DNA from: Deltaproteobacteria bacterium | GTDB lineage: Bacteria; Myxococcota; XYA12-FULL-58-9 | Direction: 5' to 3' | Assembly: GCA_016218825.1 (NCBI GenBank) | Contig: JACRCV010000087.1 | Coordinates: 62,001-126,000, forward strand | Length of the DNA stretch: 64,000 bases | In this document: positions 36,517 to 44,974 of the stretch, in pieces | Numbering within the stretch: position 1 is the first letter of the stretch | Layout of the letters: every line of letters begins with the position of its first letter | Translations under genes and position numbers: made by a program | Notes under the pieces: model-generated | What the model was told of the DNA's origin: nothing | The model's database searches: none | The model's input: the letters and a program-made list of their open reading frames with translations, nothing else

Positions 36517-36593
36517 GGTGAGCGTAGCTCAGTTGGTAGAGCCCTGGATTGTGGCTCCAGTGGTCGGGGGTTCGAAACCCCTCGCTCACCCCA
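36517..36593 (+). tRNA. tRNA-His (anticodon GTG)
   Basis: The cloverleaf is complete. The 7-bp acceptor stem is GTGAGCG/CGCTCAC, the D-arm starts AGCTCAGTTGGTAGAGC, the anticodon stem CTGGA/TCCAG encloses TTGTGGC with anticodon GTG, and the T-arm is GGGGGTTCGAAACCCC. The base before the acceptor stem is G and the discriminator is C, giving the G-1:C73 pair specific to tRNA-His. CCA is encoded. Base 32 is T. Confidence 0.97.
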
Positions 36594-42366: not shown

Positions 42367-43281
42367 CTATCTTGGCCACGCAAAAAGTCGAAACGACAAC
42401 CCGGCCCGAGAGGAGCCCGGCGCCCGACCTGGCCGCAGCCGCCGATCGTTCTTCCCTTCGAAGTAGACGTCCTCGGCGACGGTGCGCCGCTGCTCGTACT
42501 CGACGTCGACGCCCAAGCGGCGGTAGGCCGCCATCGCCGCCGCCATGTTCCGCGCCCGGATGCCGTCGGCCTTCGCCAGCGCCACGACCCGGTCCATCTC
42601 CATCGGCCCGAGCTCGCGGACCAGGCGCTCGCCCTCCGGGGTGAGCTTGTAGGTCACGATCCCGGTCGGGCCGGCGATCCGCGACTCCAACAGGCGCGCC
42701 ACCTGCGGATTGCCGTGATGCCGCAGCGCCTCGGTGAGACGGACGTGGCCGACGAGGTCGGCGCCGGACGGCAGGCTGAAGATCTCGAAGTGGTACTGCT
42801 CCACTTGCATGAAGTGCACCCAGAGCTCCTCGCGCAGCGACTCGAAGATCCGCCGGTGCAGGTCGAGGATCCACTCGCGGGTGTGGAGGTGGTAGCTCGT
42901 GGCTTCGAACGGCCGGCCCTGCGCCCGCCGCCCGTCCGCGAGCTCGTCGAGGACCATGTCGATGAAGTCCATGTCGAAGACCACGGCGCTGTCAGCCTGC
43001 ATCTCGCCGACGTCGACGAAGATGCCCCGGCCGCCGCCGGTGTCGAAATAGAGCCAACCCTCCTCGAGCTGCATCTCGTCGACCGCCGCCATCGACACCA
43101 GCTCGCGCTCGCCGGCTTCGCGCGACAACCTGGTCAAGGTGTGCTCGCTGCCGTCGGTCACCCGCAGGCCCGAGGACTCCACCAGGCGGATCGACGGCTG
43201 AAAGAACGAACACGACGCGACGAAGGCCGACGCCGACACCAACCAGCCAACTTCCAAGGACCTTGGGGCTCTCCAGCTCAC
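42367..43281 (-). CDS. Hypothetical lipoprotein, 304 aa
   Basis: The signal peptide (WLVSASAFVASC) ends in an acceptable lipobox. The mature part begins FFQPSIRLVESSG and is mixed alpha/beta with many Glu and Asp. No family is recognised. Notable segments are GWLYFDTGGGRGIFVDVGEM, SYHLHTREWILDLHRRIF and KLTPEGERLVRELG. The gene is divergent from glnA across a 256-nt structured, AT-rich region. Confidence 0.65.
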   Translation of the reverse strand: MSWRAPRSLEVGWLVSASAFVASCSFFQPSIRLVESSGLRVTDGSEHTLTRLSREAGERELVSMAAVDEMQLEEGWLYFDTGGGRGIFVDVGEMQADSAVVFDMDFIDMVLDELADGRRAQGRPFEATSYHLHTREWILDLHRRIFESLREELWVHFMQVEQYHFEIFSLPSGADLVGHVRLTEALRHHGNPQVARLLESRIAGPTGIVTYKLTPEGERLVRELGPMEMDRVVALAKADGIRARNMAAAMAAYRRLGVDVEYEQRRTVAEDVYFEGKNDRRLRPGRAPGSSRAGLSFRLFAWPR

Positions 43282-43322
43282 GACGGCTCCCTGCTGCTCC
43301 CTACCCCCTTATGATACGGTCC

Positions 43323-43370
43323 GCGGATCCAGATCCGCAACCTGCCACATGCGTTACCTTTTGGTAACGC
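43323..43370. promoter_or_regulatory. Two adjacent perfect inverted repeats upstream of glnA
   Basis: GCGGATC-CA-GATCCGC (43323-43338) and GCGTTACC-TTTT-GGTAACGC (43351-43370) lie 12 nt apart at the start of the glnA / lipoprotein intergenic region. Both are perfect. They could be operators or a hairpin pair in the leader of the minus-strand lipoprotein gene. Confidence 0.6.
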
Positions 43371-43440
43371 AAGAACCTGCACCTGCGCCGCCATCGCTGT
43401 GATAAGCTGTTGTTATTGTTGATTATATAGTTACTGATCT

Positions 43441-43508
43441 TGAATATACGGCAAATTCTATTGAATATATGTCTTTCGTTGACATAATTAGTTGATATTA
43501 GTAGAACC
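43441..43508 (+). promoter_or_regulatory. glnA promoter region: direct repeats plus -35/-10
   Basis: TTGACA (43480-43485), 17 nt, TAGAAC (43503-43508), about 30 nt before the glnA ATG. Just upstream, TTGAATATA occurs twice (43441-43449 and 43462-43470), 21 bp apart, i.e. two helical turns on the same DNA face. The whole stretch from 43400 is strikingly AT-rich. No NtrC-type or sigma-54 consensus is seen. Confidence 0.6.
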
Positions 43509-43537
43509 ACTCAAGTTCTCACACCGTGAGGAGTCGA

Positions 43538-44974
43538 ATGAGCACTGTGGCCTTGCGCGATTTTCTCGAGATCCCATACGACCAATTGGAGGAGATGAAC
43601 CTCGAAGCGAAGGGGATGCGGCTCGACCGGGTGGAGGCGCACGCGGTCCGGGAGCAGCGGGTCAAGTACCTGACCGACGAAAAGCGGATCAAGGCGGTGA
43701 CGGTCTGTTTCACCGACCTCGAGGGCCGCTTTCACATGCTCGACTACGACAAGAAGTTCCTGTTGAAGGCGGCGGACAACCTGACCTTCGACGGCTCCTC
43801 GATCCGCGGCTTCTCGCAGCAGCACGAGTCCGACCTGCGCCTCGCGGTCGACTGGGGCGCCTTCTATTGGCTGCCGGCGGACGTGTTCGGTCCCGGCAAG
43901 GTGCTGGCGTTCGGCGAGGTGCTCAACCGGGACGGCACGCCGTACCCGGCGGATCTGCGCGCCACCCTGAAGCGGGCCGCCGACCAGCTGTGGAACAAGG
44001 ACCGCACGATCTGCAACGCCGCCAACGAGATCGAGGGCTTCTTGTTCCGCGGCCGCGACGCCGAGCGCGGCTACCGCGACACCGGGGCCTTCGAGTTCAT
44101 CTCCACCGGCGGCTATTTCCACTCGCTGCCGAACGACCCGTTGCGGCGCTTCATCGACGGTGCCGCCGAGGTGCAGCGGGCGATGGGGTTCGCGAACGAG
44201 AAGGACCACCCCGAGGTCGCGCCGTCGCAGTTCGAGATGAACTACGCGTACACCGAGGTCTGTGTCGCCGCCGATCAGATCCAGCTCTACAAGCTCCTCT
44301 GCCGCCAGGTGGCGCACAACCTGGACATGACCGCGAGCTTCCTGCCGAAGCCGGTCGCCGGGATCAACGGCAACGGCATGCACACCAACCTGTCGTTCAG
44401 CCGCGGCGGCAAGAACCTGTTCTACGACCAGAAGGGCGAGGACGGCCTGTCGGGCATGGGGCACGCCTTCATCAAGCGGGTGTTGGCGTCGGGGGCGGAG
44501 ATCTGCCTGATGTTGAACGCCAGCGTCAACGCCTACCGCCGTCTCGACCCGCACTTCGAGGCACCGAACCAGATCAAGTCGAGCGCCATCGACCGCGGCT
44601 CGATGGTGCGCATCCCGCTCGGCAACGAGCGCTCGGCACGCATCGAGGTGCGCTCGGTCGGCCCGGACGCCAACCCCTACATGGTGCTCTACGGCCTTTT
44701 GCGCACCGGCCTCGACGGGCCCGAGCTCGCCGAAGACGAGTCGAAGCGACCCCGCACCCGCTTCCTGCCCGACAACATCTACGACGCCTTGCGACACTTC
44801 AAAGCCAGCGCCTGGGCGAAGGAAGTCCTGGGCGAGGAGTCGTGGGCGCGTTATGCCGACCTGAAGCAGGCGGCAGCCGACCGCTGTCCGAAGGCGTTGG
44901 GGTCGATCGTCAAGGTCGCCGAGATCCAGTTCCACCATGAGGTGACGAATCAGTTCTTGTGGAACCAGTTTTGA
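43538..44974 (+). CDS. glnA: Glutamine synthetase, type I
   Basis: 478 residues from the ATG at 43538, with GAGGAG seven nt upstream. It joins ammonia to glutamate using ATP, in the cytoplasm. GSI signatures are FDGSSIRGF, GAFEFIST, NGNGMHTNLSF (ATP/Glu site), the NASVNAYRRLDPHFEAPNQ block and the SARIEVRSVGPDANPYM region. The adenylylation segment of GSI-beta (NLYDLPP) is replaced by DNIYDALRHFK, so the Tyr is kept but its context is not; adenylylation control is uncertain. A repeat element begins 23 nt after the stop. Confidence 0.9.
   Translation: MSTVALRDFLEIPYDQLEEMNLEAKGMRLDRVEAHAVREQRVKYLTDEKRIKAVTVCFTDLEGRFHMLDYDKKFLLKAADNLTFDGSSIRGFSQQHESDLRLAVDWGAFYWLPADVFGPGKVLAFGEVLNRDGTPYPADLRATLKRAADQLWNKDRTICNAANEIEGFLFRGRDAERGYRDTGAFEFISTGGYFHSLPNDPLRRFIDGAAEVQRAMGFANEKDHPEVAPSQFEMNYAYTEVCVAADQIQLYKLLCRQVAHNLDMTASFLPKPVAGINGNGMHTNLSFSRGGKNLFYDQKGEDGLSGMGHAFIKRVLASGAEICLMLNASVNAYRRLDPHFEAPNQIKSSAIDRGSMVRIPLGNERSARIEVRSVGPDANPYMVLYGLLRTGLDGPELAEDESKRPRTRFLPDNIYDALRHFKASAWAKEVLGEESWARYADLKQAAADRCPKALGSIVKVAEIQFHHEVTNQFLWNQF

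Follow-up and report, generated by a model that had tools for sequence, protein, structure and literature searches.

Glutamine synthetase is usually controlled in many proteobacteria by NtrC and sigma-54, and glnA and amtB are controlled by TnrA and GlnR in Bacillus, NtcA in cyanobacteria, GlnR in actinobacteria, and AmtR. For the soil and aquatic phyla considered here, the search entries of the open-licence literature yielded no account of how the level of the enzyme is set. The question is raised by a 64,000-nucleotide stretch of a Deltaproteobacteria genome, referred to here as the window, in which a glutamine synthetase gene is preceded by an unusually AT-rich gap, and where an earlier note, made from the sequence alone, proposed a structured control region. 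That observation is confirmed and its interpretation is partly supported. We propose, with a probability of roughly three in four, that the gap carries a drifted copy of a tandem operator that is conserved before glnA and amtB and is most likely served by one predicted nitrogen regulator. A conserved operator of this kind would offer a bait for the regulator and, in genomes without genetics, a footprint for its targets.

The glutamine synthetase gene and its upstream gap

The gene (43538–44974, plus strand, ATG at 43538) encodes a 478-amino-acid protein of a divergent type I subgroup and has the sequence GAGGAG, by eye its ribosome site, immediately 5' of the start. A gap of 256 bases separates it from the start, at 43281, of a divergently transcribed gene (42367–43281, minus strand, 304 amino acids), for which no Pfam or NCBIfam family was found at E≤0.001. 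The 478-residue protein has both glutamine synthetase domains (PF00120 and PF03951) and is similar to glutamine synthetases of known structure (best E 8e-63), but scores 246.7 bits against a cut-off of 429.15 in TIGR00653, the type I equivalog family, and the name glnA would thus hold with reservation. It is the sole close member in its own genome, where a single further stretch gives a match, at 27% along residues 158–439. Of 58 genomes related to the window, 20 have a match at E≤1e-100, the window's own among them. The subgroup lies below the TIGR00653 cut-off, and its orthologues (among the best 80 of 584 confirmed) are 68–77% identical across records labelled Myxococcota, Acidobacteriota, Planctomycetota, Gemmatimonadota and Chloroflexota, which suggests that it may have been transferred between phyla; these labels are record titles, several of them from MAGs, and some are doubtful.

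An AT-rich control region in the gap, as the earlier note had stated, is supported. The window has a GC content of 69%, and positions 43400–43499 are its lowest-GC 100-mer, at 26%, the next lowest being 42%. When this DNA stretch was searched for in the family, the window itself was the sole match. An RNA element was dropped as a means of glnA control since Rfam, at gathering score, gave nothing near glnA; its only match in the whole window was a tRNA (36518–36590), and there was none to the glutamine riboswitch.

The 21-bp array before glnA and amtB

Within the AT-rich stretch, at 43419–43469 on the plus strand, the sequence TTGAWTATA occurs three times with an exact period of 21 bp. The second and third copies, both TTGAATATA, lie at 43440–43448 and 43461–43469, each 21 bp past the one before, and are the two direct repeats that the earlier note had reported; both belong to a conserved array, here in its local version. 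The first copy, TTGATTATA at 43419–43427 (in the frame of the motif model described below, GATTATATAGTTAC from 43421), had not been listed. At period 21 the three copies share 8 of 9 positions, as against at most 4 at all other periods from 10 to 35, and none of 2,000 Markov shuffles attained 8 at any of these periods.

Conservation was examined upstream of glnA in relatives. From 101 loci with a match to the glutamine synthetase, 8 were removed (1 duplicate of the window, 1 with too short an upstream region and 6 near-identical), leaving 93. A de novo motif search from which the window was excluded returned gaaTTTAGnCTtaa, and the element is a near-palindrome about a free centre, ATTTAGnCTAAAT, with a conserved G-n-C centre. 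Pairs of motif matches exactly 21 bp apart number 37, compared with a shuffle mean of 0.05, and pairs 42 bp apart number 11, compared with 0.07, while spacings of 20 and 22 bp give 3 and 2 pairs. Likewise, the log-likelihood of a two-copy model is 298 at period 21, 187 at 20, 180 at 22 and 78–145 at the other periods between 15 and 31. Further copies are evident at -21 and +42 relative to the best pair, and arrays of at least 14 bits precede 54 of the 93 genes, with two, three, four and five copies in 19, 24, 10 and 1 of them.

When the loci were split into halves and the search was begun from random starts, both halves independently gave the same motif, and held-out sequences reached p≤0.01 in 25/44 and 32/48 cases. 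The corresponding totals of 63/93 and 59/93, from two scorings, count training sequences, which the split-half test does not. By record label, with training sequences included, p≤0.01 was reached in 26/33 upstream regions under Myxococcota, Deltaproteobacteria or Pseudomonadota, 12/15 under Acidobacteriota, 10/11 under Planctomycetota, 1/2 under Gemmatimonadota, 1/2 of the unlabelled and 9/15 of other relatives; the array was found before none of the 14 Chloroflexota orthologues, which counts against the operator reading. Among control stretches of the same loci the threshold was reached by 3/111 upstream of neighbouring genes, 1/262 taken at random and 1/93 of the most AT-rich. A microsatellite origin (three units of 7 bases making 21) was considered and rejected, the glnA upstream regions having 1 pair at spacing 7 and 0 at 14. 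Separately, most pattern matches in Vicinamibacteria genomes resemble, by eye and with the loci unopened, runs of a 7-base unit, for example TTTAGGC or TTAAGTC in G250, G253, G257, G260, G351 and others of this class.

The best three-copy alignment of the window-free model to the window falls exactly on the repeats described above (GATTATATAGTTAC, GAATATACGGCAAA and GAATATATGTCTTT). Its fit is modest, with p of 0.143 for two copies and 0.023 for three under the full model, and 0.164/0.074 and 0.122/0.044 under the two half-data models, and the window falls short of p≤0.01 in the array scoring. The strict two-copy pattern is absent from its own genome and from that of a congener, and a pattern built from the window's own copies has no other occurrence in the 6.5-Mb genome. 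At the same time, the window's repeats stand upstream of an orthologue of the glutamine synthetase and comprise at least two copies at an exact 21-bp period, and the arrays of the congener and of an order-mate have p of 0.007 and below 1 in 300. The window array is therefore best read as a drifted form, in which ATTTAGnCTAAAT has become (TT)GAWTATA with the period retained.

It could instead be argued that the operator is real in relatives and that the window holds a worn-out relic whose repeats bind nothing, in keeping with the weak three-copy fit (p 0.02–0.07), the missing strict pattern and a genome in which, as discussed below, amtB was not found. We consider this unlikely, as decay would first have blurred the positions that the three copies share, which remain 8 of 9 at exactly 21 bp, and their mutual agreement looks more like drift in step with a regulator.

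Both of the perfect inverted repeats described in the earlier note exist, GCGGATC-CA-GATCCGC at 43323–43338 (arms 7, loop 2) and TGCGTTACC-TTTT-GGTAACGCA at 43350–43371 (loop 4), the second having arms of 9 and not of 8. Their part in glnA control is not supported. These GC-rich palindromes were looked for in the congener (L084/L004) without being seen, and they are ordinary in number: for arms of 7 and loops of 2–6 the window has 83 perfect inverted repeats where five shuffles have 51–65, for arms of 9 it has 11 where they have 1–9, and GTTACC-N4-GGTAAC at up to 2 mismatches occurs once where 0.39 is expected. They were rejected as glnA operators on these two grounds. By position they belong to the part of the gap nearer the divergent gene, and the first possibly lies inside the promoter of that gene. 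The GGTAACGC palindrome, which had been suggested for a pull-down, is therefore the wrong element, and the array at 43419–43469 is the right bait.

A second target emerged from genome-wide searches. The strict two-copy pattern matched in 50 of 195 Myxococcota genomes; gene context comes from 30 loci, with glnA just downstream in 23, amtB in 4 and neither in 3, and from three further places opened, of which one (L178) is at glnA and two (L180 and L181) lie inside other genes, and in low-GC genomes control patterns were as frequent as matches. A looser pattern, applied to 14 Myxococcaceae genomes, added three array-preceded amtB genes, and all seven amtB found by pattern belong to PF00909. Searching by family found amtB in 13 of 26 genomes and gave 16 loci, 15 after one without a usable frame was set aside. 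The model trained on glnA reached p≤0.003 in 7 of these 15 upstream regions, which are unequal in length, and the seven belong to genomes labelled or placed as Myxococcota, Acidobacteriota and Gemmatimonadota. Among the other eight, one has a two-copy p of 0.023 and seven are without an array. The order-mate (G007) has the array at one of its two amtB genes (L158) as well as at glnA (L093). No PF00909 amtB was found at E≤1e-30 in the window's genome or the congener's, which is unusual when compared with 14 of 14 control genomes that have this transporter.

These results bear on whether a specific regulator is needed at all, because phased AT-rich elements could simply make the promoter curved or UP-type and so raise the transcription of glnA, and an AT-rich stretch in a window of 69% GC with a period of two helical turns would suit this. 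However, the element is nearly palindromic with its G-n-C centre conserved, the 93 control stretches chosen for highest AT content gave the single case mentioned above, and the second target class is a nitrogen gene. We regard such a promoter as a quite improbable explanation.

Candidate regulators

Arrays lie before glnA in several phyla and before amtB in some, and the regulator is therefore predicted to be a nitrogen regulator. Boxes of known regulators, in consensus form, were compared with the window and the 93 upstream regions. The usual arrangement in many proteobacteria, control by NtrC and sigma-54, shares the targets glnA and amtB with the array, and a sigma-54 activator gene adjoins amtB in one genome (L163). 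Nevertheless, it is very improbable here: the window has a sigma-70-like promoter in place of a -24/-12 element or NtrC box, and, just as the earlier note had it, no sigma-54 site (TGGCAC-N5-TTGCW) or NtrC box (TGCAC-N6-GTGCA) occurs at up to 2 mismatches in 43282–43537, the best of each having 3. Neither is enriched, at 4/93 and 5/93 upstream regions compared with 4.2 and 3.8 in shuffles.

TnrA/GlnR, NtcA, actinobacterial GlnR and AmtR act on the same pair of targets, but the boxes of TnrA, NtcA and AmtR are not enriched. The Bacillus box TGTNA-N7-TNACA has 1 mismatch at best in the window and occurs in 3/93 upstream regions (4.2 in shuffles), the NtcA box GTA-N8-TAC has 2 mismatches at best and occurs in 1/93 (1.0), and that of AmtR occurs in 3/93 (3.5). 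The half pair of actinobacterial GlnR shows mild enrichment (6/93, 1.2 in shuffles), OxyR and DtxR boxes show no enrichment in the 93 regions, and ATTTAGnCTAAAT is strongly enriched in the same scan (37/93, 4.8).

Operators of Lrp/AsnC are octamer-type, with several phased copies, and serve amino-acid metabolism, and in both respects they resemble the array. A search at E≤1e-6 for the AsnC_trans_reg domain (PF01037) found none in the window's genome (96.5% complete), the congener's, G007, G065, G069, G073 or G078, and several array-bearing genomes are among these; the domain is present in 12 of the 26 genomes searched. Lrp/AsnC was rejected because this search did not find it in the window's own genome. 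A conserved neighbouring gene was likewise rejected, as neither clustering of reading frames nor inspection by eye of the nearest frames revealed a regulator shared among the glnA neighbours of the 93 loci.

Operators in tandem, spaced by some two turns of the helix, are known from the double ARG boxes of ArgR, the sites of OxyR and other LysR-type proteins, and the direct repeats of AraC-type proteins. These resemble the array in their spacing of about 21 bp and in overlapping a promoter, and differ from it in that the array element is ATTTAGnCTAAAT, in up to five copies. The regulator might belong to one of these families and merely have a new set of targets. Matches like the ARG box (TGAATWWWWATTCA) occur in 13/93 upstream regions compared with 6.2 in shuffles, although the window's best has 3 mismatches. 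In a Holophaga MAG, a LysR gene is preceded at 18 bp by a similar element pair, and a LysR-type gene is flanked by amtB and gltB in another genome. On the other hand, the upstream regions of LysR genes across genomes gave a two-copy p of 0.010 in 1 of 10 and 0.038–0.42 in the other nine, and 19 of 26 genomes, the window's included, have no match to the Holophaga protein at E≤1e-40. Overall, a family already known for such repeats seems somewhat unlikely, and the LysR lead was set aside, the suggestive pair being unsupported by genome search and shuffle p-values; that LysR gene stands beside leuA in one genome.

As to the layout of these two loci, in the Holophaga MAG (L175:3197–5726) LysR is divergent from leuA, and the space between the two genes holds a pair of near-identical elements 21 bp apart, of which one is 15/16 identical to an element in the glnA array of its own genome. 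In the other (L172:3754–10991, labelled Vicinamibacteria), amtB, the LysR-type gene and gltB, for glutamate synthase, are adjacent.

Among the search entries of the open-licence literature, no description of such an array was found. We suggest, tentatively, that the arrays belong to an undescribed nitrogen-control system, in which a dedicated regulator, from a family with no known part in the control of nitrogen, would use ATTTAGnCTAAAT arrays phased at 21 bp before glnA and amtB in several phyla. Regulator and operator would have co-evolved, to which the drift of the copies in the window points; to us this wider proposal seems nearly an even matter.

Promoter overlap and proposed mode of action

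The third array copy supplies the likely -35 of glnA. Its TTGAAT begins a sigma-70-like promoter, TTGAAT-N16-CATAAT (43461–43488, plus strand), which we prefer from its match to the consensus (9/12, with TG ahead of the second hexamer; 1 found where shuffles give 0.5). TTGACA-N17-TAGAAC (43479–43507, plus strand), proposed in the earlier note, is indeed in the sequence and is a possible promoter, but it is absent from the promoter-scan list and the former fits the consensus better. In several relatives, a TTG[AC] begins 2–4 bases ahead of an element; of the 76 tetramers of this kind close to the 54 arrays, 17 have this position. A further 15 are at +10, largely in Myxococcaceae (by eye), where the last array copy ends at the -35 and not in the spacer (also by eye).

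The array, its period, its conservation and its recurrence at amtB are results of computation, and from them we infer binding of a protein, repression and a sensed signal as follows. The AT-rich stretch would serve as the promoter region of glnA and carry a tandem operator of three elements. Since 21 bp is two helical turns, copies of one protein would be lined up next to each other along the same helical face, and their binding could be cooperative. The -35 and spacer of the likely promoter overlap with the last element, so that the simplest effect of a bound protein would be to block RNA polymerase, presumably when glutamine or ammonium is plentiful, and would leave the operator when nitrogen is short. 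This geometry fits steric repression best. Activation is possible in Myxococcaceae, where a last copy ending at the -35 would suit an activator too.

Two smaller features were noted close to the arrays. Right behind that of the window, at 43487–43505, is a short repeat, ATTAGTTGA and ATTAGTAGA, 10 bp apart. In Nannocystis (L019, L027 and L028), three copies lie, by eye, within 0–70 bases of the start codon on its 5' side. The last of them ends at that codon and contains a -10-like TATTTA, so that the glnA message of these bacteria may be leaderless.
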